Of a stretch of 24,671 bases of DNA, positions 2,555-24,671 are shown piece after piece. This DNA comes from a virus. The notes beneath the pieces were generated by a model, which did no database searches, was not told the DNA's origin, and saw only the letters and a program-made list of their open reading frames with translations. A program made the position numbers and the translations under genes. The stretch lies in the IMG/VR virus record IMGVR_UViG_3300034082_002205, positions 1 through 24,671 of that record; one strand, 5' to 3'. How positions within the stretch are numbered: the first letter of the stretch is position 1; every line of letters begins with the position of its first letter.

Positions 2555-2557
2555 TTA

Positions 2558-2776
2558 TTACCCTTTAATCTGTTCTCGTTTTTCACGATATTCTTGATAT
2601 AGTTCAATTTCTTTCATGTTGACTAAATGTCCTGCAGCAGTAATATGATTTTTCAACATACCCTCACTGAGCCATTGCAATCTTTGTTTAAATTCTTCCA
2701 AATTTGCACATTTCATATACTCATATGCATTCATGAGTTCTTTTCTTAGTGCTGCTAATTTTTGTTGTTTGGTCAT
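2558..2776 (-). CDS. Small ORF of unknown function between nrdA and nrdB
   Basis: This 72-residue, highly charged, probably all-helical protein begins MTKQQKLAALRKELMNAYEYM and ends with a Glu/Lys/Arg-rich segment (YQEYREKREQIKG). It has no Cys pair, catalytic motif or membrane segment; one Cys lies at about residue 23. Its ATG overlaps the nrdA stop as ATGA, and three bases separate its stop from the nrdB start, so it is translated as part of the reductase operon. I do not recognise the family. Being locked between the two subunits is compatible with a role linked to the reductase, but phage genomes often insert unrelated small ORFs in such places. The frame is well supported by its tight fit between neighbours. 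Confidence 0.72.
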   Translation of the reverse strand: MTKQQKLAALRKELMNAYEYMKCANLEEFKQRLQWLSEGMLKNHITAAGHLVNMKEIELYQEYREKREQIKG

Positions 2777-5101: not shown

Positions 5102-5539
5102 TTATAGTTTTTTATTTATTTTGGTCATGTCTATATGACTAGTCACTTTGAAATTGTTTAGACTATTACTTATGACCGTGTTAGGGTGGTAATTACATAT
5201 ATATTTTGCGCTATTAACCATGACTAGAGAGTATTCTTCACTATTATCGTCTATTGCGATACAAAAGTCAATGTCGTTGATACCCACTAAGTGTAGAGTA
5301 TATACCATGCCCAGTCCCCTGGCAATTTGACAGTAGTTATTTTCTACTAGTAATTCCCAAGGTCCGGGCCAGTTATCTATATCAGTTGGGTGAAGATAAT
5401 GGTTTAATAGTGGTGCAAATTGCCACCATTTGTCTATTGCTAGACAAATAGTGTTAACGTCTTTATCTTCAAGTGATTTTCTTAAGTCGTACCAACTCTT
5501 AAGTCTGGCTTCATAGTTTAATTGAAAAACATTAGTCAC
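5102..5539 (-). CDS. Conserved phage hypothetical protein (WWQFAP / NWPGPWELL motifs)
   Basis: This 145-residue protein starts with GTG at 5539-5537; no in-frame ATG fits better, because the nearby ATG at 5532 is out of frame. It contains the aromatic motifs DKWWQFAPLLNHYLHP and DNWPGPWELL in its first half, a Cys/Tyr-containing segment NNYCQIARGLGMVYTL, and a beta-rich second half. The Trp-rich motif is familiar from small proteins of T4-like aquatic phages, but no function is known to me. It has no signal peptide or clear membrane helix. It lies 18 bases after the 116-residue ORF and 10 bases before nrdA, so it may be co-transcribed from the late-type promoter at 5926-5933. Confidence 0.78.
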   Translation of the reverse strand: MTNVFQLNYEARLKSWYDLRKSLEDKDVNTICLAIDKWWQFAPLLNHYLHPTDIDNWPGPWELLVENNYCQIARGLGMVYTLHLVGINDIDFCIAIDDNSEEYSLVMVNSAKYICNYHPNTVISNSLNNFKVTSHIDMTKINKKL

Positions 5540-5557: not shown

Positions 5558-5908
5558 TTAGACTACTATTTCTTTCCACGATACAGTTTCTTCATCCCAA
5601 TTATAGAGCTTATCGTCAGTTGGTCTTGGGGTTGGTGCTTCCCATTGACAAGTATCTTCATTTAATAGCCAGCTATTAAATGGTTGGGGTGCGATAAAAG
5701 CATCACGTACACTATCATACGTGAAACCTATGCCTGCATAGTTTTTTCGTAGTGGTGTTCCACCCAATGTATGTTGCCCACCATATGTGTTATAGCTTGT
5801 TTGTACCCAAGAAGCCGGGTCTCCCCATAATCCAGAAGCAAGAACGTCTTGTTCTATAACAATTACTTGGGTAACTATTCCGTTTTCTACTTTTGCAAAA
5901 TGACTCAT
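5558..5908 (-). CDS. Conserved fibre-neighbour phage protein (HFAKVENGIV family)
   Basis: This 116-residue protein starts MSHFAKVENGIVTQVIVIEQ and contains WVQTSYNTYGG, LRKNYAGIGFTYD, RDAFIAPQPF, a TCQWEAP segment and a closing NWDEETVSWKEI. This motif series is familiar from proteins encoded near structural genes in T4-like cyanophages and other aquatic phages, where annotations vary between hypothetical and tail-fibre-associated. The paired beta-hairpin phrases around Trp and Tyr suggest a small virion or chaperone-like protein. It is the first gene after the glycine-rich array and has its own leader, with TATAAATA at 5933-5926 and AAAAGGAA before the ATG. This suggests late expression of a structural or assembly protein. 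Function is inferred from context only. Confidence 0.82.
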   Translation of the reverse strand: MSHFAKVENGIVTQVIVIEQDVLASGLWGDPASWVQTSYNTYGGQHTLGGTPLRKNYAGIGFTYDSVRDAFIAPQPFNSWLLNEDTCQWEAPTPRPTDDKLYNWDEETVSWKEIVV

Positions 5909-5925
5909 GATGTATTCCTTTTATG

Positions 5926-5933
5926 TATTTATA
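5926..5933 (-). promoter_or_regulatory. T4-type late promoter box TATAAATA
   Basis: On the minus strand bases 5933-5926 read TATAAATA, identical to the T4 late-promoter consensus, which is recognised by the gp55 sigma factor together with the gp45 sliding clamp. Transcription would start about six bases downstream, near 5920, leaving a leader of about 12 bases that includes AAAAGGAA before the ATG at 5908. It sits in the only sizeable gap (50 bp) in the left half of the window. The match is exact and well placed, but no other member of the late-transcription system is in the window. Confidence 0.6.
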
Positions 5934-5937
5934 TTTA

Positions 5938-5965
5938 TTTTTAATTAAATTATTTTAATTAAAAA
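5938..5965. repeat. Perfect 12-bp A/T inverted repeat with 4-base loop
   Basis: Bases 5938-5949 (TTTTTAATTAAA) are the exact reverse complement of 5954-5965, separated by TTAT. The right arm covers the stop codon of the last glycine-rich gene (5959-5961). The element lies directly upstream of the TATAAATA box for the next gene. It is built only of A and T, so an RNA hairpin would be weak, and no U-run follows on the minus strand. It may be an A/T upstream element, a weak 3'-end structure or chance in A/T-rich DNA. Confidence 0.5.
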
Positions 5966-6882
5966 GTTATTGAACCTGAACTGGTCCATATATATGTTCT
6001 GTACCCACCCGATACTAGATAAGTTGGACTTCCTGTAGTAGTGGTTGCAGCTTCAAACGAGTCAGAGTAACTAATAATAACAACTCCGTCGCCGCCGGCA
6101 CCACCGCCACCTGCAGGATAGCCACCGCCCCCGCCGCCTCCACCTGTATACGCAGTTCCAGCAGTACCTCGTACACTATTTCCACCTGATCCAGCACCAC
6201 CTCCTCCAGTTCCACCGACACCAGCTATTGTTCCATTAGAAAATGTATATGCTGCTCCGCCACCGCCACCTGCAAAATAAGTAGAACCTCCGCTAACTTG
6301 TCCTACTCCTGCAGAAGTGGCTTGTGCAGTTGTGATTATAGTAGATGCTAGCCCTACCCCTCCGGCGCCGCCACTAGTGTTAACAACTGCGCTTACTCCA
6401 ACCGCTCCTGCACCACCACCGCCACCTGCAACATACCCATTTCTACCTAATCCTGCACCACCTGCGTTGCCTTGACCAACAGTACCGGCAGCACCAGGAT
6501 AGGATGTGTCAGTTTCACTTGAACCGCCACCGCCACCTGAGCCTCCCGAAGTATTAGATCCGCCGGCAGCTACATATGAACCACCGGCGCCACCGCCTAC
6601 TGCGGTTAGTCCAAACGCAGTAGAACCGCTTCCATTTGTACCGGGAGTAGAGCCTGCGGCTGCTGATTGTGTTGCACCTGCCCCAACAGTAATGGTATAG
6701 GTAGTTCCAAGAGTAACAGATGAAGTGCTACTATTTAAATATCCTCCGGCGCCGCCGCCGCCGCCAAATGAAGCTCCGCCCCCACCCCCACCTGCTACTA
6801 TTAGATAGTTTACACTATCTGGTGCGGTAGCCTCGGGAAGAAACACTACCCCAGCTTCAATAACCGATCCTTCTATAATCAT
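5959..6882 (-). CDS. Glycine-rich adhesin-type protein, single module (array copy 8, last)
   Basis: This 307-residue protein has a leader of about 24 residues (MIIEGSVIEAGVVFLPE), then the core opening NYLIVAGGGGGG, and a long stretch of Gly clusters separated by short Ser/Thr/Ala segments, including YTITVGAG and several GGGGGAG blocks. It closes with a strand pair DGVVIISYSDSF and GGYRTYIWTSSGSITF. This layout matches glycine-rich domains in phage tail proteins. Gly-rich proteins such as the T-even gp38 adhesins fold as polyglycine helix sandwiches whose loops bind receptors, so a fibre-tip adhesin is the best guess. It differs from its siblings in having NYLIV instead of VEYLV at the core start. 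AGAGGA before its ATG is the best ribosome-binding site of the array. Confidence 0.85.
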   Translation of the reverse strand: MIIEGSVIEAGVVFLPEATAPDSVNYLIVAGGGGGGASFGGGGGAGGYLNSSTSSVTLGTTYTITVGAGATQSAAAGSTPGTNGSGSTAFGLTAVGGGAGGSYVAAGGSNTSGGSGGGGGSSETDTSYPGAAGTVGQGNAGGAGLGRNGYVAGGGGGAGAVGVSAVVNTSGGAGGVGLASTIITTAQATSAGVGQVSGGSTYFAGGGGGAAYTFSNGTIAGVGGTGGGGAGSGGNSVRGTAGTAYTGGGGGGGGYPAGGGGAGGDGVVIISYSDSFEAATTTTGSPTYLVSGGYRTYIWTSSGSITF

Positions 6883-6895
6883 TTTTATTTCCTCT

Positions 6896-8635
6896 TTAAA
6901 AAGTTATTGAACCTGAACTAGTCCACTTGTATACTATATAACCACCGGCAGTAGTGATAGTTGGACTACCAGTTGTACTTGATGCTGACGGATATGTATC
7001 TGCGTAACGAATAATTACGATACCTGAACCACCTGCAGCAGTTACAGCAGCATACCCACTACCTCCGCCTCCTCCTGTATTTACAGAGCCGGCCGCACCG
7101 CTTCCGCCACCTGCGGCACCATTTCCACCGCCATATGAAGCAGTACCACTTACTGATGACCCGCTGCCGCCACCACCTCCTGCATAATTGGTAGATGATC
7201 CTGAAATAGATGACGTAATACCTACACCACCATTTCCACCAGTAGCAGCAGTCGCAGTTCCTCCTATTGCACCAGCACCTCCCCCGCCCCCTGATGCAGT
7301 TGCTCCTGTTATAGCTAACCCCCCGTTATAACCTTGTGTACTTGTGCCATAACCCGAAGTACCAGGACTATAAGGGGATGTAGAAGAACATCCGCCCCCG
7401 CCCCCTGATCCAGTTGTTCCTGCACTAGTAGCTAATCCGTTTTGCAGCGTGGAGCTAAATGCACCACCACCTCCGCCACCAAGACTAGTAATACTTGAAA
7501 AAACAGATGAATCTCCGTTTGTACCTTGTACTCCACCACTGGCTGCACCTGCGCCGCCACCGCCAACAGTAACAGTAATTGGTGTCCCGGAGGCTACTGC
7601 AAAGCCAGTATCAGTTCTATATCCGCCTGCGCCTCCTCCTCCAAAACTGCCACCGCCGCCGCCGCCGGCTACTACTAAGTATTCAACTGTAGATGTAACA
7701 GGAACGAAAGATATTGAACCACTAGTAGTCCAAGTATATATTCTATATCCGCCTGCAGTAGTGATAGTTGGTGAACCAGTTGTACTTGTTGCGGCTGCAT
7801 AAGTATCTGAATAACGGATAATTACAAGACCTGAACCGCCTGTTCCGCCTACCGATGCATTAGGAGCACTACCGCCTCCACCACCTGAATTTGCTATTCC
7901 TGATGTTGCGTTTGCGGATGATGAACCACCTGCACCTCCGCCACCAACGGCGCTAGTAGAGGCAGCACCACCACTATATGATCCTCCTCCACCACCACCA
8001 CCAGCTATGTAGTAAGTTGCTCCTGATAATACGCCAGCACCGGCTGCGCTTAGTAATGCTGAATATGTTCCAGTACCTGCACCGCCCGGAGCTCCGGCTG
8101 AAGTGCCGGGGGCTGAACCCGGTGCGGCGGCGCCGCCACCACCAGCACCACCAGAACTTAAAATTGTGCCGCCGCTTCCTGCTTGCCCATAATATATACT
8201 ACCTATCGGATTGACCCCTAGACTAGCCTGAGTACTAGAACCACCTCCTTCATTAAAGTATCCGCCACCGCCACCTGAACCGCCATTTCCGCCAGTAGTG
8301 TAAGAGCCTCCGCCACCACCGCCCTTTGCAACAACTAAATTACTACCAAAAATAGAGTCACCGCCGGATCCTCCAACGACCGAGGCACCAGATAATACGC
8401 CTTTGGTTCCACCTGCGCCTACGGTAATTGCATATGGACCAAGTGCAATTGAGTATGCAGCTTGATAAATGACGCCACCGGCACCGGCGCCGCCGCCCGG
8501 AACTGCATTACCTGGGTACTCCCCAGTTCCTCCACCGCCACCGGCAACTACCAAGTATTCAACCGTAGAGGGTGCGATCAGGACTCCATCGGTTAAATCA
8601 ACCCCATCTTCAATAGTCATTCCTTCTACAATCAT
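6896..8635 (-). CDS. Glycine-rich adhesin-type protein, double module (array copy 7)
   Basis: This 579-residue protein contains two complete modules in one frame. The leader (MIVEGMTIEDGVDLTDG) is followed by module 1 from VEYLVVAGGGGG (about residue 25) to YTWTTSGSISF (about 310). Then, without a stop, PVTSTVEYLVVAGG opens module 2, which ends YKWTSSGSITF. Module 1 carries an unusual ALGPYAITVGAGG segment and few repeats of the QG-N type; module 2 contains TSGYGTSTQGYNGG and a CSST segment, giving one of the very few Cys residues in the array. The junction near 7690-7710 looks like an erased stop and start between two formerly separate genes. The ribosome-binding site is AAGAAG, 13 bases after the preceding stop. 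A virion adhesin role is inferred. Confidence 0.87.
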   Translation of the reverse strand: MIVEGMTIEDGVDLTDGVLIAPSTVEYLVVAGGGGGTGEYPGNAVPGGGAGAGGVIYQAAYSIALGPYAITVGAGGTKGVLSGASVVGGSGGDSIFGSNLVVAKGGGGGGSYTTGGNGGSGGGGGYFNEGGGSSTQASLGVNPIGSIYYGQAGSGGTILSSGGAGGGGAAAPGSAPGTSAGAPGGAGTGTYSALLSAAGAGVLSGATYYIAGGGGGGGSYSGGAASTSAVGGGGAGGSSSANATSGIANSGGGGGSAPNASVGGTGGSGLVIIRYSDTYAAATSTTGSPTITTAGGYRIYTWTTSGSISFVPVTSTVEYLVVAGGGGGGSFGGGGAGGYRTDTGFAVASGTPITVTVGGGGAGAASGGVQGTNGDSSVFSSITSLGGGGGGAFSSTLQNGLATSAGTTGSGGGGGCSSTSPYSPGTSGYGTSTQGYNGGLAITGATASGGGGGAGAIGGTATAATGGNGGVGITSSISGSSTNYAGGGGGSGSSVSGTASYGGGNGAAGGGSGAAGSVNTGGGGGSGYAAVTAAGGSGIVIIRYADTYPSASSTTGSPTITTAGGYIVYKWTSSGSITF

Positions 8636-8648
8636 TTTTATTTCTTCT

Positions 8649-10355
8649 TTAGAAAGTTATTGAACCTGAACTAGTCCAATTGTATATTATATATCCGCCG
8701 GCATTAGTGATAGTTGGGCTACCAGTTGTACTTGTTGCGGCTGCATATGTATCTGGGTAGCGAATGATTACAATACCAGAACCACCTGCACCACCATTAG
8801 AATTATTTTGCCCGCCGCCGCCACCGCCACCTGTATTAGTTGTTCCGTTAGTACCTACTCCAACAACAGACCCTGCCCCGCCGCCACCTAGTCCTCCGGC
8901 TCCCGCAGAGCCTCCACCGTAGGCACCTCCCCCACCGCCACCTGCGTAATATGTTGCCGTACCAGATATACTAGACGATAGACCGTCACCTCCGGGCCCT
9001 GCTACGCTAGTTGCTGTGTTGCCTGCAGTTCCGGCTGCACCAGCACCGCCACCGCCACCTCCGCGATAATTGTTAGTACTTCCTGCACCGGCACCTCCAT
9101 TAGTTCCTTGGCCTGATGTGCCAGAGCCAGCTGCCTGGTTGACGCTTAATCCGTAGCCATTTCCGCCGCCACCTGAGCCTCCGTTGGCGCCTGCTCCACC
9201 TACTGCTTCAGTTGCACCTGCACCGCCGCCCAATGAGATGATAGAACCAAACACAGAATTGAGTCCGTTAGTAGCAGCAGTTGTTTGGTATCCTACTCCA
9301 CCGCTGCCACCGGTGCCAATTGTAACTGTTATAGGAGTGCCTGCACTTACCGCATATCCTGCGGCAGTTAATAATCCACCGGCACCACCTCCGCCTCCAT
9401 TTGAGCCACCGCCTCCTCCGCCGCCAGCAACTACTAAGTATTCAACTGTAGAAGGAGCTGCGGGAAGTGGATTTCCAAAAGATACTACACCTGAACTAGT
9501 CCAAGTATAAGTTTTATACCCACCGGCATTAGTGATAGTTGGGCTACCTGTAGTTAGTAAATCCGAGTATGTATTTGGATAAGTAATAATAACTACCCCA
9601 CTACCGCCATTGCCACCAATATTGGTATTAGTGGAATAATTTTGGGCTGCACCACCGCCGCCGCCGCCTGTTCCGGCGCCGCCGGATCCGGCTGTTAGTG
9701 TACCAACTTGAGCTCCGGTCCCTCCGCCTCCAGTTCCACCCGCTGCACCACCTCCACCATTTGATGCACCACCGCCACCGCCACCTGCATATGTATTACT
9801 ATCTAGCCAGATTGATCCGGCGCCGCCTGCACCAGCGGTACCACCACTACGATCTCCACCCACAGCACCAGCGCCGCCTCCCCCACCTGCTCCTTGATTG
9901 CCACCGCCACCAGTGCCACCTGCACCACCATTATTTCCTTGGCTTGGACTAGTTGCTGGGGTATTTCCGTTAGCAGTAGCAGCACCACCTGATCCACCAT
10001 TGCCGCCACCCGAACCACCTGATCCACCGGTCTGCGAGCCAGTATCGCTGCCACCTCTACCGCCGCCGGCAGCACTATAACCAAATGCAGACGATGCTAC
10101 TCCGTTTGCAGAATCTGTAGCACTGGTATTTTTGGCGCCCAGGCCACCTGCACCCACTGTAATGGTATATGTTACTGCACTAGAAACTGCTAGTGTAATA
10201 AATGACCTAAATCCGCCTGCGCCTCCACCTGCTCCGCCATTATTGCTTAATGAAGCACCACCTCCACCTCCACCTCCAACTATTAGTAAATCAATAGTGG
10301 GCGGCGGGTTTAAGAACAAAACGCCAGTCGTAACAGTTACCCCTTGTATAATCAT
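8649..10355 (-). CDS. Glycine-rich adhesin-type protein, double module (array copy 6)
   Basis: This 568-residue protein has leader MIIQGVTVTTGVLFLNPPP. Module 1 starts IDLLIVGGGGGGG, a diverged version of the usual VEYLVVAGG opening, and ends YTWTSSGVVSF at about residue 293. A short Pro/Ala linker (GNPLPAAP) leads to STVEYLVVAGG and a second full module ending YNWTSSGSITF. Module 1 is the most Gly/Asn-rich of the set, with GGNGGSGG- and GTGGGG-type clusters; module 2 contains AAGYAVSAGTPITVTIG, close to the equivalent segment of the copy at 12970-13848. The linker differs from those of the other two double copies, so the fusion may be independent. AAGAA before the ATG is a weak ribosome-binding site. 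Confidence 0.86.
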   Translation of the reverse strand: MIIQGVTVTTGVLFLNPPPTIDLLIVGGGGGGGASLSNNGGAGGGAGGFRSFITLAVSSAVTYTITVGAGGLGAKNTSATDSANGVASSAFGYSAAGGGRGGSDTGSQTGGSGGSGGGNGGSGGAATANGNTPATSPSQGNNGGAGGTGGGGNQGAGGGGGAGAVGGDRSGGTAGAGGAGSIWLDSNTYAGGGGGGASNGGGGAAGGTGGGGTGAQVGTLTAGSGGAGTGGGGGGAAQNYSTNTNIGGNGGSGVVIITYPNTYSDLLTTGSPTITNAGGYKTYTWTSSGVVSFGNPLPAAPSTVEYLVVAGGGGGGGSNGGGGGAGGLLTAAGYAVSAGTPITVTIGTGGSGGVGYQTTAATNGLNSVFGSIISLGGGAGATEAVGGAGANGGSGGGGNGYGLSVNQAAGSGTSGQGTNGGAGAGSTNNYRGGGGGGAGAAGTAGNTATSVAGPGGDGLSSSISGTATYYAGGGGGGAYGGGSAGAGGLGGGGAGSVVGVGTNGTTNTGGGGGGGQNNSNGGAGGSGIVIIRYPDTYAAATSTTGSPTITNAGGYIIYNWTSSGSITF

Positions 10356-10368
10356 TTTTATTTCTTAT

Positions 10369-11220
10369 TTAAAAAGTTATTGAACCTGAACTAGTGAATT
10401 TATATGTTCTATATCCACCGGTATTAGTAATAGTTGGGCTACCAGTTGTACTTGCTGCTGCTGCGTACCCAGATGGATAACGAATAATCACGACACCAGA
10501 GCCACCGGAACCAGCTGTTCCGGTGTATGCAGCACCTCCGCCACCGCTACCGGAATTTGCTACACCACTACCTGCATTTGCATATGGTGCTAAAGGGTCT
10601 CCACCGCGACCACCGCCACCTGTACCACCGGCACCATAGGTACCAGAACCCACTGATGTACCGCCGCCACCGCCTGCATAGTAATTACTGTCTACCCATT
10701 GATACCCTGCTCCGCCGGCACCGCCCTGATTGCTACTAGCGGTTTGCCCTACTGCGCTAGCACCACCTCCGCCACCCGATGGAGCACCGGCAAGACTGCC
10801 CGCACTGGTTCCACCTGCATATCCTTGCCCTGCTGTGCCAGCACCGCCTGCATTTGTTCCCCAACCCGATCCACCTCCGCCAGAACCTCCTGATTGACCA
10901 ACACCACCATTAAGATAACCACCGGCACCGCCACCTATTGCAGTAGTCATTCCAGTCATACTTGAATTAGTACCAGATATGGGCGCGACCCCGTATGTTT
11001 GTCCAGTACCGCCTGCACCAATTGTAATAGTTATTGGTGTTCCAAACACAGTTAGAGTATAGCTACCCAAAACTAGTCCTCCGGCACCGCCTCCACCTGC
11101 AGGCTCACTGTAACCACCCGAACTTCCACCCCCGCCGGCTACTATTAAATATTCAATCAAAGCTGGTGGCATTAGGAATGATACACCTGGTTCTACATTT
11201 ATTCCTGGAGTTATAAGCAT
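10369..11220 (-). CDS. Glycine-rich adhesin-type protein, single module (array copy 5)
   Basis: This 283-residue protein has leader MLITPGINVEPGVSFLMPP, core opening IEYLIVAGGGG, and an N-terminal segment (GGLVLGSYTLTVFGTPITITIG) that is nearly the same as in the copy at 12134-12958. It ends YKFTSSGSITF. The middle carries different loops from its neighbours, such as SGWGTNAGG and YQWVDSNYYAGGGGG, so variation is concentrated between conserved ends. An AAGGAT ribosome-binding site precedes the ATG. It is the boundary copy: the gap before it is 11 bases, as in the upstream half of the array, and the gap after it is 13 bases, as in the downstream half. Confidence 0.85.
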   Translation of the reverse strand: MLITPGINVEPGVSFLMPPALIEYLIVAGGGGSSGGYSEPAGGGGAGGLVLGSYTLTVFGTPITITIGAGGTGQTYGVAPISGTNSSMTGMTTAIGGGAGGYLNGGVGQSGGSGGGGSGWGTNAGGAGTAGQGYAGGTSAGSLAGAPSGGGGGASAVGQTASSNQGGAGGAGYQWVDSNYYAGGGGGTSVGSGTYGAGGTGGGGRGGDPLAPYANAGSGVANSGSGGGGAAYTGTAGSGGSGVVIIRYPSGYAAAASTTGSPTITNTGGYRTYKFTSSGSITF

Positions 11221-11231
11221 CTACTTTATCC

Positions 11232-12122
11232 TTAAAAAGTTATTGAACCTGAACTGGTCCATTTGTATATATAATATCCGCCTGCATTAGTGATAGTTGG
11301 ACTACCAGTTGTACTTGATGCTGCTGCGTATGTATCTAGATAACGAATAATTACGACACCGGATCCACCACTACCACTAGTACTACCACCTCCGCCGCCC
11401 CCACCACCGGTATTAACTGTGCCTGCTGTAATACCTGTGTCAACATAGCCTCCATTTCCGCCGCCACCGACTCCACCAACTCCTGCATGTGAATAATAAG
11501 GAGGCGAGGGAACATAACCTACCCAAGTTCCTCCACCTCCACCGCCTGCATAAGCAACCGATGAGCCAGTAATAGATGAATATAATCCTGCCCCACCGTT
11601 TCCTTTAGTTCCATCAGGTGTATCAATGCCGGTTGATGCTACAGTACCTATTCCGTCGCCGGATCCAGCATATCCACCGGCGCCGGCTCCGCCGCCACCG
11701 CCTCCGGATCCGTATGATACCGAAGAATATCTACCAGAGGTTCCGCCATTATTACCTTGTCCCGCAGTTCCGGTGCCAGCAGTTGAACCATTGTAAAGCG
11801 TAGCTCCTCCACCTGATCCGCCGTTACCGAGGCCAGTACCGCCACCAACAGAAGTGACAGTAGTAAAGATACCATCAGATAATTGAGAATTTGTTCCTGC
11901 CGAGCCGACTCCACCAGCTCCTACTGACACTGTTATAGCAGAACTTACAGTAACACTTAATCCAGTTGCAGTTAAATATCCACCAGCACCGCCGCCTCCC
12001 CCGTAGCCGGTGCCACCTGCTCCGCCGCCAGCAACTACTAAATATTCAATTGTAGGAGGCGGAACTGGGGGAGCCTGTACATATACACCTGCACCAATAT
12101 ATAATCCTGAAGTTATAAACAT
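11232..12122 (-). CDS. Glycine-rich adhesin-type protein, single module (array copy 4)
   Basis: This 296-residue protein has leader MFITSGLYIGAGVYVQAPP, a Pro-rich linker (PVPPP), then IEYLVVAGGGAGG. Distinctive loops include GIDTPDGTKGNGG and a Tyr/Pro-rich WVGYVPSPPYYSHAG, rare bulky side chains in an otherwise Gly/Ser/Ala protein and good candidates for a binding loop. It ends YKWTSSGSITF. AAGGAT lies upstream of the ATG and 11 bases separate it from the preceding stop. The receptor-binding role is inferred from the family; nothing here identifies the receptor. Confidence 0.85.
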   Translation of the reverse strand: MFITSGLYIGAGVYVQAPPVPPPTIEYLVVAGGGAGGTGYGGGGGAGGYLTATGLSVTVSSAITVSVGAGGVGSAGTNSQLSDGIFTTVTSVGGGTGLGNGGSGGGATLYNGSTAGTGTAGQGNNGGTSGRYSSVSYGSGGGGGGAGAGGYAGSGDGIGTVASTGIDTPDGTKGNGGAGLYSSITGSSVAYAGGGGGGTWVGYVPSPPYYSHAGVGGVGGGGNGGYVDTGITAGTVNTGGGGGGGGSTSGSGGSGVVIIRYLDTYAAASSTTGSPTITNAGGYYIYKWTSSGSITF

Positions 12123-12133
12123 ATGATTTATCC

Positions 12134-12958
12134 TTAGTAAGTGAGTGTACCTGAACCGGTAAATGTATATATTCTATATCCACCGGCTGTAGTAATTGTT
12201 GGACTACCGGTTGTAGATGAAGCTAAAGGAAATGTGTCTAGATAACGAATGATTACCACACCAGAACCACCGGCCCCACCGGTGCTAGAATACAGGCCGC
12301 CTGCACCGCCACCGCCGGTATTTGCAGTGCCGTTGATACTTGGTCCATAATTACTGCCACTACCGCCTCCGCCCAACCCACCTGCAGAATATTTTGTACC
12401 ACCACCACCGGCATAATAAGTAGAGATACCGCTGATATCATACTCCTTGCCAACGCCGCCGTTCCCTGTATAAGTGCCACCGGCTGCACCTGCGCCGCCG
12501 CCAGCACCCATGTAATAGGCAGCTGCATTTCCACCATCATTACCAAAACCACCCCATACGCTAGCGGGTTGTAGTCCTGTACCCGGGAGACCAAAACCGC
12601 TACCGCCACCTTGTGTGCCGGCACCTCCACCCGAGCCTCCACTGGCTGCTGTAGCAGTCCCGACTGATCCCATGCCACCACCTAGTGCGGTAAGGTTTAA
12701 AGAACTGCTGGCTATTGTGGTGTTTGCCCCACTTGACGATTCTGCTGCTCCACCTGCTCCAATTGTAATAGTTATTGGTGTTCCAAACACAGTTGTATAG
12801 CTACCCGAAACTAGTCCTCCGGCACCACCACCACCACCACCGGCGGTTCCTCCACCAACTCCGGCTCCGCCACCGGCAACTACTAGATATTCAACTGGAA
12901 TGGGAGGACGGTTGAATGTTAAACCTGAACCAACATATATTCCTGAAGCTATAATCAT
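12134..12958 (-). CDS. Glycine-rich adhesin-type protein, single module (array copy 3)
   Basis: At 274 residues this is the shortest copy. Leader MIIASGIYVGSGLTFNRPP is followed by VEYLVVAGGGAG. Its GGLVSGSYTTVFGTPITITIG segment is shared with the copy at 10369-11220, down to a near-identical DNA stretch. Variable loops include GLPGTGLQPASVWGGFG and AAAYYMGAG. It is the only copy whose C-terminus departs from SGSITF, ending YTFTGSGTLTY. TAGGAAT precedes the ATG. The diverged tail suggests either relaxed constraint or a separate origin of its 3' end. Confidence 0.85.
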   Translation of the reverse strand: MIIASGIYVGSGLTFNRPPIPVEYLVVAGGGAGVGGGTAGGGGGGAGGLVSGSYTTVFGTPITITIGAGGAAESSSGANTTIASSSLNLTALGGGMGSVGTATAASGGSGGGAGTQGGGSGFGLPGTGLQPASVWGGFGNDGGNAAAYYMGAGGGAGAAGGTYTGNGGVGKEYDISGISTYYAGGGGTKYSAGGLGGGGSGSNYGPSINGTANTGGGGAGGLYSSTGGAGGSGVVIIRYLDTFPLASSTTGSPTITTAGGYRIYTFTGSGTLTY

Positions 12959-12969
12959 TTACTTTATTC

Positions 12970-13848
12970 CTAAAACGTAATTGAACCTGAACTGGTCCAC
13001 TTGTATATTCTATATCCACCGGCTACTGTGATAGTTGGACTACCAGTTGTACTTGTTGCTGCGAGGTCAGTATCTGGGTAGCGAATGATTACGATACCGG
13101 AACCACCTGCAGCACCACCTCCGTAATTACCACCTCCACCCCCACCTGTATTGGCTGTACCAGCTACTGCGGCTACTGAAGGGGAGTACGAACCACCAGC
13201 GCCGCCGCCCCCGATGCCGCCAGCGCCAACACTTCCGGGTACTCCGGTATAGGTTCCGTTGGGCCAAAGTGCGGTACCGCCGCCGCCCCCTGCATAATAA
13301 GTAGAAGTTCCACTAATAGATGATGCAATACCCGGACCGCCGGCACCACCAACGTTATTGACAGCAGCACTTGACCCAGCACCACCTGCTCCACCGCCAC
13401 CGGCAGCATTTCTATCACCAAATGCAGCATATCCATATATACCACCGTTATTTCCTTGCCCTACAGTGCCGGAACCAGCCCCACTTGGCGTGCCACTGGC
13501 ACTGTCCCATGTGCCGGCACCGCCGCCACTGCCGCCACTGCCGCCTTGTACTGACCCAGATCCTGGCATCGGGCCGCCGAAACCTCCACCATACGTTAAA
13601 ATTGAACCAAACACAGAGTCTACTCCATTGGTGTTTGCGGCTCCGCCTGAACCAACCGTAACAGTTATTGCGGAACCAGTAGCAACTGCATATCCTGCAG
13701 CAGTTAATAATCCTCCGGCGCCACCACCACCACCGCCACCACCACCACCACCACCAGCTACCACTAAGTATTCAACTGTAGAAGGTGCTACAAGCGGTGG
13801 CTCTATTGCTACACCCAACCCAATAATTAAACCCGGAGTTAAAATCAT
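12970..13848 (-). CDS. Glycine-rich adhesin-type protein, single module (array copy 2)
   Basis: This 292-residue protein has leader MILTPGLIIGLGVAIEPP, then VEYLVVA followed by an uninterrupted run of 12 Gly encoded by GGT and GGC codons at 13755-13720, the longest pure tract in the array. The following segment AAGYAVATGSAITVTVGSGG resembles the second module of the copy at 8649-10355. Later loops include FGGPMPGSGSVQ, FGDRNAAGG and GGTALWPNGTYTGVPG. It ends YKWTSSGSITF. AAGAAT is the ribosome-binding site. The trinucleotide tract could change length in frame by slippage. Confidence 0.86.
   Translation of the reverse strand: MILTPGLIIGLGVAIEPPLVAPSTVEYLVVAGGGGGGGGGGGGAGGLLTAAGYAVATGSAITVTVGSGGAANTNGVDSVFGSILTYGGGFGGPMPGSGSVQGGSGGSGGGAGTWDSASGTPSGAGSGTVGQGNNGGIYGYAAFGDRNAAGGGGAGGAGSSAAVNNVGGAGGPGIASSISGTSTYYAGGGGGTALWPNGTYTGVPGSVGAGGIGGGGAGGSYSPSVAAVAGTANTGGGGGGNYGGGAAGGSGIVIIRYPDTDLAATSTTGSPTITVAGGYRIYKWTSSGSITF
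13720..13755 (-). repeat. GGT/GGC trinucleotide tract coding 12 glycines
   Basis: Read on the plus strand this is a run of GCC/ACC triplets, almost all ACC with two GCC. It encodes the pure Gly run at the core opening of array copy 2, where sibling copies have mostly five to seven Gly. Pure triplet tracts are prone to in-frame expansion and contraction. Confidence 0.7.
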
Positions 13849-13859
13849 CTACTTTATTC

Positions 13860-15614
13860 TTAAAAAGTTATTGAACCTGAACTGGTCCATTTATACACTC
13901 TATATCCACCTGCTACTGTTATTGTTGGCGATCCTGTTGTACTTGATGCTTCTGCATATGTATCTGCATAGCGAATAATTACAATGCCAGAACCACCTGC
14001 ACCACCGCCGTGTGAACTATATGAAGAAGTAGCATCACTACCGCCGCCGCCTCCACCTGAATTAATTCCACCAGCACCAGCAATAACTCCTACTCCGCCA
14101 TTACCACCACCATTGCTACCACCGGTGCCCCCAGTTGAGCCAGAATATGTACTACCGCCTCCACCACCACCTGCTCCACCATTACCGCCCGTTACCCCAC
14201 TATTAAAACAACCCCCACCGCCGCCGCCAGAATAATATGTTGCTGTTCCTGAAATTGAAGTTTGTAATCCTATCCCTCCGTTTGCGCCTGAAGGGAAAGA
14301 TGCAGCAATAGCATTTGAGCCTTGTGCACCGGCTCCGCCGCCACCGCCCGCACCACCACCACTACCATCAATACCTCCGCCACCGTTATATCCTTGTCTT
14401 GGAGGGCCCGAAACGCCAGCGCCGCCACCTGATGCAACACTGCTACTACCAGAATCGGCGCCGCCACCGCCAGAACCGCCGGTGCCACCTATTGAAGCAA
14501 TTGCTGATGCTCCGTAACCGCCTCCAGAAGCAATAACAGTTGAAAATACAGAGTTACTACCAACAACCCCGAGGTTTGCCCCATTTGCCGCACCGCCGTT
14601 ACCACCTGCTCCTACAGTAACAGTAATTGCAGATCCAGAAGAAACAGATAATCCAGTATCAGTTAAATAGCCGCCTGCACCTCCACCGCCACCTAGCCAT
14701 CCTCCGCCTCCACCGCCACCGGCAACTACTAGATATTCTACTGTTGATGTTACCGGCAGTGCTGGCCAGGTGATTGAACCACTAGTAGTCCAAGTGTATA
14801 TTCTATATCCACCTGTTACTGTTATTGTTGGCGATCCTGTTGTACTTGATGCTTCTGCATATGTATCTGCATAGCGAATAATTACAATGCCAGAACCACC
14901 TGCTCGGTTAGGATTTCCAGTATAGCCACCACCACCACCACCACCACCGGTGTTTACTGTTCCGACAGTTGGGCCAATAACATTGAAATTTCCACCATTG
15001 CCGCCGCCCCCGGCACCACCTGTAGTAGTTGAACCAGAGCCAGTATATCCGCCGCCGCCACCCGCATATGAAGTAGCAGAACCTGATATTGATGATGATG
15101 TACCTGCACCTCCATTGCCACCTTGATTAGCAGTTGGAGCAGTTTGTCCATTGGCTGATGCACCGCCACCACCACCACCTGAATTATTAGATGAACCATT
15201 ACCCCCGGTATTCCCTTGACTAGGGGTAGTTGACGGTGTATTGCCAGCCGCACCTGTAGAAAAACTGCCGCCACCTGAACCACCGGCAGATGCGCCTAAA
15301 CCATTATATGATCCACCGCCTCCACCACCTGCAGAGGTGATAGTTCCAAATACGCTATTATCTCCAATAACTCCAGAAGATGTAGAAGTGCCAGCAGTGA
15401 TACCGCCACCAGCACCCACGGTAACAGTAATAGCAGAACCAGATGAGACAGCTAGTTCGGTGTTTGTTCTATAACCACCGGCGCCGCCGCCACCAATCCA
15501 ACCACCGCCACCGCCACCGGCAACTACTAAGTATTCTACTGTAGGTGGTGCTATGGGTGGTGCGGGTGGTTCTAAAACATATCCACCGGTAAATGAGACT
15601 CCTGAAAAAATCAT
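13860..15614 (-). CDS. Glycine-rich adhesin-type protein, double module (array copy 1, first)
   Basis: This 584-residue protein is the first of the array in transcription order. Leader MIFSGVSFTGGYVLEPP leads to a Pro-rich linker and VEYLVVAGGGGGG. Module 1 ends YTWTTSGSITW at about residue 280, and PALPVTSTVEYLVVAGG opens module 2, which ends YKWTSSGSITF. The closing segments of the two modules are almost identical in DNA (14804-14903 and 13901-14000, one difference in 100 bases, 903 bases apart), which implies recent duplication or conversion. The PVTSTVEYL linker matches that of the double copy at 6896-8635. A late-type box lies 17 bases upstream of the ATG. An adhesin role is inferred as for its siblings. 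Confidence 0.87.
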   Translation of the reverse strand: MIFSGVSFTGGYVLEPPAPPIAPPTVEYLVVAGGGGGGWIGGGGAGGYRTNTELAVSSGSAITVTVGAGGGITAGTSTSSGVIGDNSVFGTITSAGGGGGGSYNGLGASAGGSGGGSFSTGAAGNTPSTTPSQGNTGGNGSSNNSGGGGGGASANGQTAPTANQGGNGGAGTSSSISGSATSYAGGGGGYTGSGSTTTGGAGGGGNGGNFNVIGPTVGTVNTGGGGGGGGYTGNPNRAGGSGIVIIRYADTYAEASSTTGSPTITVTGGYRIYTWTTSGSITWPALPVTSTVEYLVVAGGGGGGGWLGGGGGAGGYLTDTGLSVSSGSAITVTVGAGGNGGAANGANLGVVGSNSVFSTVIASGGGYGASAIASIGGTGGSGGGGADSGSSSVASGGGAGVSGPPRQGYNGGGGIDGSGGGAGGGGGAGAQGSNAIAASFPSGANGGIGLQTSISGTATYYSGGGGGGCFNSGVTGGNGGAGGGGGGSTYSGSTGGTGGSNGGGNGGVGVIAGAGGINSGGGGGGSDATSSYSSHGGGAGGSGIVIIRYADTYAEASSTTGSPTITVAGGYRVYKWTSSGSITF

Positions 15615-15646: not shown

Positions 15647-18600
15647 TTATGCTGTCTTAATTACAGCAAAGTTAAGTATTGGTGATTCAGCAGGGGTAAC
15701 TGCCAATCTATTGAAAATTTGCACTTGGAATGAGCCTGCTGCTACGTTTGACACACCAATTTGATATGCAGTAGTATTACCAGTTCTTTGATTTAAAATA
15801 ATTACATCAGTTGCGGCTACAGTAGTATTAGTAACGGTGAACACATTTGCTGTATTAGCAGTAGTAGTTGAACTAACCAATGTAATAGCACCAGTAACGT
15901 TACTGATCGTGACAGCAGTATCACGACTAGTTAATTGAGTAGCTGCGCCAATAGTAGCATTATATCCTAACCCACCTTGCCCAGTTACACGCAAGTTGGC
16001 GCCCATGTTGACGTTACCTGTTATATTAGCAGTACCGGTAATATTAGCACCAGTACCAGTGACAGTTAATGTGGTATTACCAACTGCTGCTATAGTAACG
16101 TTCCCGTTAGCTGTTGCTATATAAACATTACTATTACCATTTGCTACTGTACCAATAATATTACCAAAGAAACGAGAGTTCCCGGCTACCATTAATGAAT
16201 AAGGGTTAGTAATAGTTGCGTTAGTTCCTGCTGTTGGACCAGCTGGGATATAGAATGTAGCAGCATTTGTAAATGTTACACTAGTATTTGCTGCTGCTAA
16301 TGTTGGTACACCAAATGCATGTATAGCAGAGTTCGCAATAGTTGCTGATGCCGCGGCTGAGTTGTCTGTGTAGGTTGATGCTAGAGTTCTTATGCCCATA
16401 ACACCAGTTACAGTTGATACGTTAGCATTACCCGTGACTGCACCATTTGCGGTGTAGCTATTAGATGTTATTGCGTTTGCACCTGCAATGTTACCACCGG
16501 TACCTGAGCCGATTGTAACATTACCACTTTGTACAACAAGGTTACCGGTGATGTTAGCGTTTGCAGCTACATTCATACTAGTATTAGTAAAGTTTACTAC
16601 GTTAGCTGTGCCAGAAACGCTTACAAGAATATTACCACTAGCAACAGGGATAGCAAAGTTGCTAGTGCCATTGCTAAGACCGGACGCTATCACACTTGTT
16701 AAACCACTGCCATTACCATAGAAAAATGCAGCGTTGGCTGTCCCTGTTACATTAATCCCGGTTCCAGTAACTACTAATATATTAGCATTACCGACTGCAC
16801 TCATGGTAATATTGCCGTTTGCTGCCGGTATATTTACATTACTATTACCATTGCTGATATTTACGATTCCAGATAACTGACTACCATTGCCTAAAAAGGT
16901 ATTAGCACTGATTACATTAGCACCCGTAATGTTGCCTCCAGATCCTGCACCCACAATCACACTACTACTGAAATTACCAGTATTAGCACCAATAATATTA
17001 GCACCGGTAATGTTGCCTCCGGTGCCTGACCCAGTTGTTATTATCCCGGTGATGTTTGCAGTACCTGCAACATTCATACCAGTACCGGTAACAATAACTA
17101 CATTAGCATTGCCAACAGCACTCATAGTGATATTGCCGTTTGCTGTTGGAATACTTACATTGCTGTTGCCATTACTGATGTTTGAACTACTGCCACTTGC
17201 TATACCAGTTAATTGACTACCATTGCCTAAAAAATATGCTGCGGTTACATTAGCACTGAAATTACCTGTACCTGCAACATTCATACCTGTTCCAGTTACA
17301 ATAACAATATTAGCATTGCCATCAGAACTCATAGTAATATTCCCATTTGCTGATGGAATACTTACATTGCTGTTGCCATTGACTATGGCAGTTGCATTAC
17401 CCACACCAGTTAACTGACTGCCGTTACCAATGAAATATGCTGCGGTTACATTTGCACTGAAATTACCAGTATTAGCACTTATTACGTTTGCCCCGGAAAT
17501 GTTACCGCCATTACCAGTGCCAGTTGTTAAATTCCCGGTAATGTTTGCAGTACCTGCAACATTCATACCTGTTCCAGTTACAATAACAATATTAGCATTG
17601 CCAACAGCACTCATAGTAATATTCCCATTTGCTGATGGGATGCTTACGTTACTATTGCCATTGAAAATTGAATTACTAGTGGTAGATATACCAGTTAATT
17701 GACTGCCGTTACCCAAGAAATATGATGCGGTTACATTTGCACTGAAATTACCTGTATTGGCATTTATTACGTTTGCACCGGTAAAGTTGCCGCCGTTACC
17801 CCCACCGGTTGTTATATCACCCAAAACAGTGACATTTGCACTGAAGTTGCCGGTATTAGCACTTATTATATTAGCCCCGGTAATGTTGCCTCCGGTACCT
17901 CCACCGGTTGTTATATCACCGGTGATGTTTGTAGTACCTGTAACATTCATACCAGTACCGGTAACAACTACTATGTTTGCATTACCAACTGCACTCATGG
18001 TAATATTCCCGTTTGCGGCAGCGATACTTACATTGCTATTGCCATTACTGATATTTGAACTACTGCCACTTGCTATACCAGTTAATTGACTACCGTTACC
18101 CAAGAAATATGATGCGGTTACATTAGCACTGAAATTACCTGTACCAGCTACATTCATCCCTGTACCAGTAACAGTTAATGTGGTATTACCTGCTGCTGCT
18201 ATAGTAACATTGCCGTTTGCTGTTGCTATATAAACATTACTATTTCCGTTTGCAAATACACCAACGAAATTACCTGATGTAGTGTTACCGGAAACATTTA
18301 AACTTGATAGTGTACCAACACTAGTAATATTGGGTTGTGCATTAGTTGTTAGTGTACCGGTGAAGTAATTAGCACTTACTAAATTAGCTCCGGTGATATT
18401 GCCACCAGTTCCGGCGCCAGCTGTAATATTACCACTAACATTAGCATTACCCGTAACTACTAATCCAGTACCGGTAACCACTACAATGTTTGCATTACCA
18501 ACTGCCGAAATGTTAATATTCCCGTTTGCTGATGGAATACTTACATTGCTGTTGCCATTAACTATAGCAGTTGCGTTACCCACACCAGTTAATTGACTGC

Positions 18601-21600
18601 CGTTACCAATGAAATATGCTGCGGTTACATTTGCACTGAAATTACCAGTATTAGCACTTATTACGTTTGCCCCGGAAATGTTACCGCCATTACCAGTGCC
18701 AGTTGTTAAATTCCCGATAATGTTTGCAGTACCTGCAACATTCATACCTGTACCAGTAACCACTACTACATTAGCATTACCAACTGCCGAAATGTTAATA
18801 TTCCCGTTTGCTGATGGAATACTTACATTGCTATTTCCGTTTGCAAATACACCAACAAAATTACCTGATGTAGTATTACCGGATACAGTTAAACTTGACA
18901 ATGTACCGACACTAGTGATGTTAGGTTGTGCATTAGTTGTTACTGTACCTGTGAAGTAATTAGCACTTATTATATTAGCCCCGGTAATGTTGCCGCCGGT
19001 ACCTCCACCGGTTGTTATATCACCGGTGATGTTTGTAGTACCTGTAACATTCATACCAGTACCAGTAACAACTACTACATTAGCATTACCAATTGCCGAT
19101 ATATTAACATTGCCGTTTGCTGCTGGTATACTTACATTGCTATTACCATTTGCAAATACCCCAACGAAATTACCTGATGTAGTATTACCGGATACAGTTA
19201 AACTTGACAATGTACCGACACTAGTGATGTTAGGTTGTGAATTAGTTGTTAATGTACCTGTGAAGTAATTAGCACTTACTAAGTTAGCTCCGGTAATGTT
19301 TCCACCAGTTCCGGCGCCAGCTGTAATATTACCACTAACATTAGCATTACCCGTAACTACTAATCCAGTACCAGTAACAACTACTACATTAGCATTACCA
19401 ACTGCCGAAATGTTAACATTGCCGTTTTCTGCTGGTATACTTACATTGCTATTACCATTTGCAAATACCCCAACGAAATTACCTGATGTAGTATTACCGG
19501 ATACAGTTAAACTTGTTAATGTACCAACGCTAGTGATGTTAGGTTGTGCATTTGCTGTTACTGTACCTGCTGTTGATGCACTACCAGCAGAACCAGTACT
19601 AATTGCGTATGTTGCATTTGCTACAGTACCTGTTACATTAGCGCCAGCAATTGCACTTAGTCCAATACCATTACCAGTAAATACACCTGTAGTAGCTGTA
19701 ATGTTAGCTGATGTGATGTTACCACTAACACCCAAGTTACCCAATGTACCAACACTAGTTAAACTAGATGTTACAATAGAAGCGTTAAGTGTTGTACCTG
19801 TTAAATTCGCTGCATTTGCAGTGATAGTTACATTTGCTGCTGCTGTTAATTGACCCTGGCCATTAACAGTATAAGTTGGCACACTATCACCATTACCATA
19901 CGAACCCGCAGTAACGGTCGTGTTACTGATACTAAAAGTAGTACCTGTTAATGTCAACCCTGTTCCCGCATTATATGTGCCTGCACCCGAGAATTGAGTA
20001 AATAAAATTGTATTACCAGCAGTACCAATTGCCGCCGGACTGTCAGTTTGTACCCAACCAGTATTATCATATAATGTACCGCCGGTACAGAATACAAAGT
20101 CACCTGCTTCTACTTCAGGGACACTATCATAATCAGTTGCACGAGTAATTACAGTAGTAGTACTCCAAGTATAGATGCCGTTGTGTACTGCATTTGCTTC
20201 ATTTTTAACTATAATACGTGTACCAACGGTTTGTACATCTACCCCATCTATTAAGTAAAATATACCGGTTGTTGTTAAGGTTGCTCCTACCCCACTTGCA
20301 CCATTATTATATGTTACAATCCCGCTGGTTATATTTGCCAATGTGTCCGGTGTTCCTGCTTGAACTGAATCATGTACATTCAAGCCCTGAGCAACGTCAT
20401 CAACATATTTCTTTGTTGCTGCATCAAAATCTGCTACAGGAGTCTGTACGTTGGCTATTATAAAGTTATTAACATTAACTTTTCCTGTACCAGTTGGTGT
20501 TAGATTAATATTCTGATTTGTGCCGGCTGCGGTAATTGTTACACTTGAAGTTCTACCTACAATATCATTAGTGATGATATTTGTGGTACTAGTAATATTA
20601 CCCTGAGCTACTATCAATCCAGTGGTGCCTAAGTTACCAACGTTTGCATTGCCACCTACACTTAGGTTACCACCTGTATTTAAGCTACCACCTGTAATAT
20701 TACCCAATGTCATTATTATTCCACCTACCCCAAGATTCCCAATATTTGCATTTCCTGCAATTGCTGCATCATAAAATGCATTGAATTTAGTATATACATT
20801 GACATTTGACCCTGTAATAGTTACTCTATCACTATTTCCCTCAGCCGATAGTGCAATGGTTGAGTTGGCAGCGATACTGATATTGCTATTACCATTTGCA
20901 AAGTTTAATGCATTGATGCTGCTAGATACATTTAAATTACCGGCAACTGCTACCCCTGTATTAGCAACTACTAGTACATTTGGAACTCCGTTTGCAGTTA
21001 TATTGACATTACTGCTATAAGTTACTAAAACATTACTGCTGCCATTAATAATAGCAGTACCTGCAGGTATAGTTAAGTTAGTTAATAGATAACCATCACC
21101 ACTAACAAAATTAGCTTCTGCTAAGTTACCTAAGTTAGCGTTTAATGATTTTAGATTTCCTGTGAAGTTAGCACCAATAGCCTTGATATTACCACTAACG
21201 TTGGCATCAACAGCAACCGTTAATGTACCGGTTGTATTTAAGTTTCCGGCTGCATTTATATTAGCTCCCGAAATATTACCCGTAGCAGAAACTAACCCGC
21301 CTACACTCAAATTACTACTAATATTAGCAGTACCGGTGACATTTGCTCCGGTGTTTGATACTACAAGCACATTTGAAACACCGGCCACACTAGTTGTTAC
21401 ATTACCGCTTGTGTTTACTATAACATTACTAGTACCATTGGTCAACGATGAACCAGCACTGATTGTTAAGTTAGATAACAAATAACCGTCACCTTGAAAG
21501 AAATTCGCTTTTGCCAAGTTACCTAAGTTAGCGTTTGCTGATGTTATGTTGCCTGTAAAATTACCAATACCGGCATTAACATTATTAATATTTAAATTGC

Positions 21601-24115: not shown

Positions 24116-24671
24116 TTAGATAACTCTATATTGTGTAGTCCAAACAGTTGAATTACTGCTAGCTGGAGTTACTTGAAGTTCAATATTAGAATTAAGTCCA
24201 ACTGATGTAATGTTAACTGCAAGTGATCCTATGGATCCTCCTAAGTTAACTGTACCAAATGTTGAATAATCCGCTGAAGTACCGTCCGTAACTGCCATAA
24301 CTGTGGCTACACTGTATTTAGCTCCGGTTGAATCAACCCCCTTAACAATAAATTCTACCCCGGTTATAGTAGTACTGGTTATCTGTACTGTTGATATAGT
24401 TTGATTTGCAGTGGTTGAAGACGTTGTTACCGTTCCCGATAGAATAGAAGTGTTATTTATACCTATTGCATTAGAAGTTGATATGTTTCCAGTTGCAACT
24501 ATTAATCCACTAGTACCAAGATTACCAACATTAGCGTTACCAATAACATTAGCAACGCCACTTGTTACCAAATTGCCACCGGTTATGTTTCCAGTAGCTA
24601 CTATTAGTCCACTTGTACCTAAGTTACCAACATTAGCATTACCGATTACATTAGCAACACCTCCTGTTACC
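24116..24671 (-). CDS. Fibre-type structural protein, C-terminal part (cut by the right window edge)
   Basis: An open frame runs in from the right edge and stops at 24116; 184 codons are visible. A start at the TTG at 24571 is not needed, because the same frame continues upstream without a stop. The visible N-terminal portion holds two copies of a 34-residue repeat (GVANVIGNANVGNLGTSG, LIVATGNI). From about 24470 to the end comes a non-repetitive domain with VEFIVKGVDSTGAKYSV, FGTVNLGGSIGSLAVNI, LQVTPASSNSTVW and a terminal TTQYRVI. That closing domain is familiar from structural proteins of T4-like phages. The gene ends three bases before the giant fibre gene, so the two are probably co-translated partners in the same fibre or in sequential fibre segments. 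Its full length is unknown. Confidence 0.82.
   Translation of the reverse strand, partial: VTGGVANVIGNANVGNLGTSGLIVATGNITGGNLVTSGVANVIGNANVGNLGTSGLIVATGNISTSNAIGINNTSILSGTVTTSSTTANQTISTVQITSTTITGVEFIVKGVDSTGAKYSVATVMAVTDGTSADYSTFGTVNLGGSIGSLAVNITSVGLNSNIELQVTPASSNSTVWTTQYRVI
24480..24671 (-). repeat. 102-bp direct repeat in the partial fibre gene
   Basis: The plus-strand hexamer GTTACC at 24666-24671 recurs at 24564-24569, 102 bases (34 codons) away, and the sequence following each copy matches closely. The first copy continues beyond the window, so the number of units is unknown. The second degenerates at about 24480, where the unique C-terminal domain begins. Confidence 0.78.

Follow-up and report, generated by a model that had tools for sequence, protein, structure and literature searches.

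The receptor-binding part of the Pam3 fiber protein gp24 combines a tumor necrosis factor (TNF)-like domain with a glycine-rich domain of 12 glycine blocks with variable tips (PDB 7YPX, PMC9608196). The gp38 adhesins of T-even phages (S16, PP01, and T2), normally encoded by one gene located beside the fiber gene, likewise present hypervariable receptor loops that protrude from a glycine-rich lattice (PMC12892980), and in gp38 of S16, 10 glycine motifs are arranged in three layers (PMC9608196). Several receptor-binding proteins per phage, with position-specific N-termini, exchangeable C-termini, and gain and loss by recombination, are described for the Ackermannviridae (TSP1-4) and Klebsiella phage phiKp24, which use large gp10-like XD/TD anchors on tail spikes (PMC11414711). 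In marine phages that are otherwise conserved, the fiber locus can be hypervariable; such loci are described as host-recognition clusters, in T4-type phages (PMC7029224), and as metaviromic tail-fiber islands in marine phages generally (PMC3909814). Here we analyzed a viral contig of 24,671 bases (IMG/VR record IMGVR_UViG_3300034082_002205, the window), a fragment of the genome of a large aquatic phage, in which eight genes for glycine-rich and probably receptor-binding proteins stand side by side.

The window shares with Pam3 gp24/gp25 (PMC9608196) the receptor-binding fold, its 12 glycine blocks, and an adjoining gene with a chaperone-like β-sandwich. However, Pam3 has one fiber gene, whose product bears an N-terminal helical trimerization/docking domain, whereas the window has eight genes, the products of which carry leaders of 20–26 amino acids and an extra β tail. 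The chaperone candidate is also shorter than Pam3 gp25 and lacks its helical C-terminal half. In its proposed way of working the array resembles gp38 and the branched spike systems. The number of genes equally distinguishes the array from gp38, and in place of the anchors of the spike systems its proteins, which are paralogues sharing a glycine-rich fold, bear short leaders, with no gp10-like XD/TD domain in a Pfam scan of the eight array proteins. In the relevant parts of PMC7029224 and PMC3909814 it is the island that is described, and not arrays of glycine-rich genes in which leaders stay fixed and modules are swapped. Methylophilales phage Melnitz, Pelagibacter phage HTVC025P, and Synechococcus phage Bellamy resemble the window in that a glycine-rich gene is followed by a gene of family PHROG 7759, but they have one to three glycine-rich genes, annotated as hypothetical, and no eight-gene array in the stretches examined. 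This fold, phages with several adhesins, and hypervariable loci for host recognition are already known. As far as the searched literature shows, novelty appears to lie in how large the glycine-rich array is, in leaders that follow the slot in two lineages, in a turnover of one module at a time among near-identical phages, and in the assignment of PHROG 7759 as a chaperone.

The array extends from position 5959 to 15614 and consists of eight adjoining open reading frames (ORFs) on the minus strand, none of them interrupted in the ORF list of the window and all separated by spacers of 11 or 13 bp. The 8 proteins all matched the Pfam family PF21722 (Gly_rich_2) with 47–149 bits (E 5e-12 to 2e-43), the curated cut-off being 24.3 bits, and all 8 matched PHROG 2295 (E 2.7e-32 or better). 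Three genes encode two PF21722 modules and five encode one (2+1+1+1+1+2+2+1 from g1 to g8). The total of 11 bears out the eight-gene, 11-module tandem array that the original prediction, made from the letters of the window, had placed here. The array genes and the gene next to g8 are the following (L014 and L017 are near relatives; m1 and m2 are first and second modules):

13860..15614, minus strand: g1, 584 amino acids, two modules (m1 ~15536-14739, m2 ~14738-13863), leader MIFSGVSFTGGYVLEPPAPPIAP, slot 1
12970..13848, minus strand: g2, 292 amino acids, one module (the one modeled by AlphaFold2), leader MILTPGLIIGLGVAIEPP, slot 2
12134..12958, minus strand: g3, 274 amino acids, one module, slot 3, kept in every near relative with an intact array
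11232..12122, minus strand: g4, 296 amino acids, one module, slot 4, kept in near relatives
10369..11220, minus strand: g5, 283 amino acids, one module, slot 5, leader as in L014_6/L017_5, module different
8649..10355, minus strand: g6, 568 amino acids, two modules (m1 ~10292-9444, m2 ~9443-8652), no clear counterpart slot in L014/L017
6896..8635, minus strand: g7, 579 amino acids, two modules (m1 ~8560-7685, m2 ~7684-6899), slot 7, leader as in L014_7/L017_6, modules different
5959..6882, minus strand: g8, 307 amino acids, one module, last slot
5558..5908, minus strand: PHROG 7759 gene, 116 amino acids, predicted assembly chaperone of the glycine-rich proteins

Clusters of glycine-rich genes were collected by scanning viral collections with three glycine-rich proteins, the 116-amino acid neighbor, and the product of a 145-amino acid conserved gene as queries. 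The resulting counts are counts among the matches listed (at most 80 loci per scan), in which contig ends cut some clusters, and are not population frequencies. About 240 distinct clusters were found among them. A single gene was present in 129 of these and a pair in 70; 15 had three genes, 23 had four, and clusters of five, six, and seven genes occurred once each, the eight genes of the window being additional. The window array is the largest among the matches listed and lies beside a gene for a 2821-amino acid fiber, in agreement with the earlier suggestion that its size is unusual; arrays of at least six genes were present there only in the window, L014, and L017. The accompanying idea that such adhesins normally come as a single gene holds for gp38 but not for the glycine-rich family studied here, in which two to four genes per locus are common. 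Between the fiber gene and nrdA, the window has eight glycine-rich genes, L014 seven, L017 six, L089 and L250–L252 three, L246–L249 two, and L253 and L255 none, the 116-amino acid gene likewise not being seen at the locus in the last two. Gene number and modules thus vary strongly between relatives, as had been anticipated, and the same eight genes are not carried throughout. In L244, which matches the window at 96% identity beginning 30 bases upstream of the 116-amino acid gene, the array position (L244:1-3405) is occupied by at least 3.4 kb that encode a protein with WFGGG/ATASVRGPL repeats, a glycosyltransferase, and a 2OG-Fe(II) oxygenase, besides a small ORF. Reading of its sequence just before the 116-amino acid gene (~3378-3407) revealed a WTSSGSIKF-stop stub that is the tail end of a module, and therefore the array has been lost or replaced there.

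Pairwise identity between modules is 45–66%. Their middles vary in length and sequence, and their C-terminal tail is near-invariant over the last 45 residues (TTGSPTI..GGY..Y.WTSSGSITF). An alignment of 113 sequences showed 12 glycine blocks, eleven of them invariant in length, with variable segments in between. Direct protein and DNA comparison of the modules with annotated phages gave almost nothing, probably because low-complexity filtering masks glycine-rich sequence, and a PDB sequence search returned glycine linkers and chance hits only, so that fold comparison was needed. The AlphaFold2 model of the g2 module, built with the 113 sequences, reached a predicted local distance difference test (pLDDT) score of 93.4 and a predicted template modeling (pTM) score of 0.90. 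Its best PDB match in Foldseek was the Pam3 fiber, although weak by Foldseek score (E 0.15). With a second structural aligner the model matched the Bxb1 tail tip (9d93, Z 11.7) and Pam3 gp24 (7ypx_A, Z 11.6, root mean square deviation 3.0, 158 residues), the next-best matches being ALK/LTK glycine-rich domains (Z ~5). The TNF-like and glycine-rich receptor-binding domain of the Pam3 gp24 type is present in the model, and the N-terminal helical trimerization/docking domain of gp24 is absent, only a short non-helical leader preceding the first strand. The array products are very probably receptor-binding tail adhesins, as the original prediction held, but their fold matches Pam3 gp24, and the gp38 type that it had named is not supported. 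No gp38 Pfam match was obtained with the eight proteins, for which only PF21722 was found at E up to 0.01. None of the structural matches listed for the module model was a gp38 structure either, although this is no evidence of absence.

Among predicted viral structures, the module fold is common in uncultured phages and is present in cyanophages, pelagiphages, and prasinoviruses; the BFVD hits A0A7S6NY19 and G9E5X5 place it in viruses of the algae Bathycoccus and Micromonas. In 30 of 38 ORFs that are at least 600 amino acids long, the glycine-rich modules end no more than 60 residues before the C-terminus, and fiber-like proteins of 900–1265 amino acids with a single terminal glycine-rich module occur among the long ORFs. 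Up to five modules stand in tandem within one protein (L164), and proteins of 800–1340 amino acids in L139, L131, and L124 have the reverse of the usual order, with the glycine-rich module N-terminal.

Of the 79 loci retrieved by a glycine-rich query, 70 contained the 116-amino acid gene, mostly at 51 bp or less from a glycine-rich gene. A PHROG 7759 gene follows glycine-rich genes also in the cultured phages HTVC025P, CRP-207, Bellamy, and Melnitz; the three pairs of the last (MZ577097.1, L240) lie at 1914-3741, 13605-15372, and 16406-18014 and are annotated as hypothetical. The model of the 116-amino acid protein (pLDDT 93.9) matched the N-terminal β-sandwich of the Pam3 chaperone gp25 (7ypx_a) with Z 5.5 over 53 residues, this being the sole chain with Z of at least 2, and gp25 was also its best match in Foldseek (probability 0.94, E 0.11). 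Pfam chaperone families gave no match in 97 members of the 116-amino acid family. The gene is a predicted candidate for a fiber chaperone of the Tfa/gp25 type. That two adjoining genes independently match the two partners of one solved complex is a stronger point than the Z value.

On balance, we consider it probable that the array encodes tail adhesins that are addressed to positions, are folded with a chaperone, carry exchangeable modules for receptor binding, and are probably displayed together. Each protein would consist of a short slot-specific N-terminal leader and one or two receptor-binding modules, and each module would be a TNF-like β jelly roll, the strands of which continue into a glycine-rich lattice of 12 short blocks with variable loops, followed by the conserved β tail. 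The leader would set the docking place on the fiber or tail, the module would be the swappable receptor-binding part, and the product of 5558-5908 would act as a Tfa-like chaperone that aids folding of the glycine-rich part. If the leader is a fixed address, several adhesins are therefore probably shown on one virion. Homologous recombination, with related phages or between copies, would replace a module between conserved flanks, namely the leader side and the β tail, and may also delete or add whole modules, with a change of specificity as the outcome. In its fullest form, which we regard as possible rather than probable, this would be an addressed adhesin rack, with six to eight glycine-rich adhesins on one virion at their own leader-set sites, one shared mini-chaperone, and near-identical co-circulating phages trading tips slot by slot.

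The leaders measure 20–26 amino acids, and their identity between genes has a median of 33% over all gene pairs compared, with only a loose common pattern. Conserved leaders and C-termini around differing middles had been described for the array; this is right for the near-invariant tail and the variable middles, but the leaders are poorly conserved among the eight genes and are instead conserved slot by slot between phages. In slot 1, the leader is 100% identical to that of L017 and the module 61%. In slot 2, the leader is 100% identical in L017_2 and L014_3, with module identities of 57% (L017) and 46% (L014). Leader identity to L014_6/L017_5 in slot 5 and to L014_7/L017_6 in slot 7 is 81%, against 60% and 47–49%, respectively, for the modules. 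The window, L014, and L017 share one slot order, into which g6 and g8 are inserted as extra slots in the window and a single extra slot in L014, and 41–45 of 45 bases of leader DNA are identical in the closest phages. A second, more divergent lineage comprises 17 loci with glycine-rich genes around the 116-amino acid gene and four distinct leaders (examples are MSLSKVGGILSAGLNGINYPV, MANGLFNLKQVMQAVQQGGW, MSQTLLGGFLSATFNPLSG, and MAQYSGMWTLSQVSQAVKDLNWTG). Same-slot leader identity in this lineage is 73.6%, versus 41.1 ± 1.4 when slots are shuffled, a value reached in 0 of 500 shuffles, although the 17 loci are mutually related and this count should not be read as a strict probability; module identity is 62.9 in the same slot versus 58.4 shuffled. 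A position-specific conserved N-terminus combined with a variable C-terminus is thus present in two lineages. No slot leader was found on a non-glycine protein among the ORFs of the fetched loci, which were chosen for their glycine-rich genes. These patterns would suit a docking address. The proteins could alternatively be tips for one site, all expressed and competing for a single docking site on the fiber, which would produce a mixed virion population. The shared fold and tail, the operon-like spacing, and the loose common leader pattern in the window lineage are compatible with this, but leaders that differ so strongly and are slot-specific in two lineages fit different sites better, and we consider competition for one site unlikely.

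The flanks of the array are mostly 93–100% identical between the window and L014 or L017, a patch in nrdA excepted. In phages with 96–99% identity beside the array, the modules are either 89–100% or at most 64% identical over their length in comparisons with near relatives, with sharp boundaries, and in a swapped slot the identity passes from 93–100% in the leader to 33–70% in the module core and back to 95–100% in the tail. g3 and g4 are common to the window, L014, and L017 (g3 is 98–99% identical to L014, L017, and L243, and g4 89%), and the g8 module is 98% identical to a module of L245; g2, g5, g6, and g7 had no close copy in the near relatives compared. In gene 1, m1 of the window is m1 of L014 (97%), m2 of the window is m1 of L017 (93%), and m2 of L014 is m2 of L017 (91%), so that the module make-up in these three close phages is AB, AC, and BC; the simplest account would be an ABC ancestor from which each of the three lost one module. 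The ratio of nonsynonymous to synonymous substitution (dN/dS) of orthologous copies is 0.1–0.5, which denotes purifying selection, and for this reason specificity seems to change by module replacement and not mainly by point mutation. Synonymous difference among paralogues is 0.48 in the tail versus 0.66 in the core, which is suggestive, though not decisive, of gene conversion of the conserved tail. The presence of different tips at the same places in near-identical phages suggests a built-in way of changing the bacteria recognized. The same mobility could serve a recombination reservoir, in which one or two proteins would be present in virions and the rest would be stored cassettes moved to an active position. 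That modules do move, as gene 1 illustrates, that conserved tails flank every module, and that whole modules are private to one phage all agree with storage. However, all copies are intact ORFs, each having a start and a spacer to itself, the copies with orthologues are under purifying selection, each slot has a different leader that is kept over the longer divergence of the second lineage, which is unexpected for silent stores, and no resolvase or invertase was found in four related records of up to 303 kb. Because of the intact ORFs, the purifying selection, and the slot-specific leaders, we prefer co-display with recombination on top, and regard a silent reservoir as quite doubtful.

A structural role without receptor binding, in which the glycine-rich proteins would decorate the capsid or the fiber shaft, could account for how widespread the fold is, algal viruses included. 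This is improbable given how closely the module model resembles a tail tip and the receptor-binding part of a fiber in structure, the linkage to a chaperone candidate, the C-terminal place of the modules in long proteins, the adjoining fiber gene, and a rapid turnover that is typical for host-recognition loci. The array could also be a chimera, assembled from reads of co-occurring phages that were joined via the repeated tails, since the window is a metagenome contig and the tails are similar over ~140 bp. Nevertheless, L014 and L243, which come from different metagenomes, are 99.99% identical over 7988 bp including four array genes, g3 and g4 occur in this order in the window, L014, L017, and L243, g8 recurs in L245, no ORF is broken, and the leader slots have the same order in the window, L014, and L017, all of which makes an artefact very improbable. 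Variable loops within otherwise conserved proteins might also recall a diversity-generating retroelement or site-specific inversion, which we regard as highly improbable because the variation is whole-module replacement and not scattered substitutions, no resolvase or invertase was found in the four related records, and no reverse transcriptase was found in six related records (near relatives of 14–16 kb and contigs of 145–231 kb among them; the window itself is a 24.7-kb fragment).

Several points weigh against position-addressed, chaperone-folded adhesins. The 116-amino acid protein is modeled without the helical C-terminal trimerization domain of gp25, its C-terminal half consisting of strands and loops, and a Z of 5.5 over 53 residues is weak on its own and could reflect a common arrangement. 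The modules lack the helical docking domain of Pam3 gp24, which makes attachment through the leader a guess. Leader conservation in the closest phages could partly be that of an unrecombined flank and not the result of selection, a question that the divergent second lineage settles in part. Moreover, all near relatives are metagenome contigs, in which repeats could be mis-assembled. If the proposal is true, fixed short addresses, exchangeable tips, and one chaperone would be a simple rule for a broad and fast-changing host range of aquatic phages, and the sequence of an array would allow one to follow how host recognition has changed in natural populations. It would also propose functions for two large families listed as unknown, PHROG 2295 as adhesin and PHROG 7759 as chaperone, which co-occur in cyanophages, pelagiphages, methylophages, and many uncultured phages.

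Three further features border the array:

15647..24112, minus strand: giant repetitive fiber gene, 2821 amino acids, directly upstream of the array; relatives keep a fiber gene here
5926..5933, minus strand: TATAAATA, T4-late-promoter-like, 25 bp upstream of the 5558-5908 gene
5102..5539, minus strand: conserved gene of 145 amino acids, which marks the downstream border and served to fetch near relatives

The 145-amino acid gene is rare and a marker of the window lineage, and no relative of it was found in bacterial and archaeal genomes. Beyond it lie nrdA, nrdB, and a glutaredoxin gene (named from sequence), a small gene, a PAAR gene, and one further gene. Within nrdA, a patch at ~3472-4281 is ~68–80% identical to L014/L017 in a neighborhood of 90–100%, and nrdA itself is therefore a recombination mosaic. 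Two large members of the lineage (contigs of 231 and 303 kb) have a T4-type gp23 capsid gene, and the sheath profile PF04984 gave no match in the large relatives. TATAAATA occurs at or near the equivalent place in L014, L017, L244, and L245; in the window, the number of motifs of this type is not above chance (2 found versus 3.8 expected), and promoter and terminator scans of the array yielded about as many sites as shuffled sequence. The giant fiber is a candidate for the shaft to which the adhesins may dock. It varies among near relatives, the best matches having 55–64% identity, and tandem repeats at 18650-19569 (309 bp x3), 17733-17920 (99 bp), and 24482-24671 (102 bp) fall in its gene and in a truncated upstream ORF.

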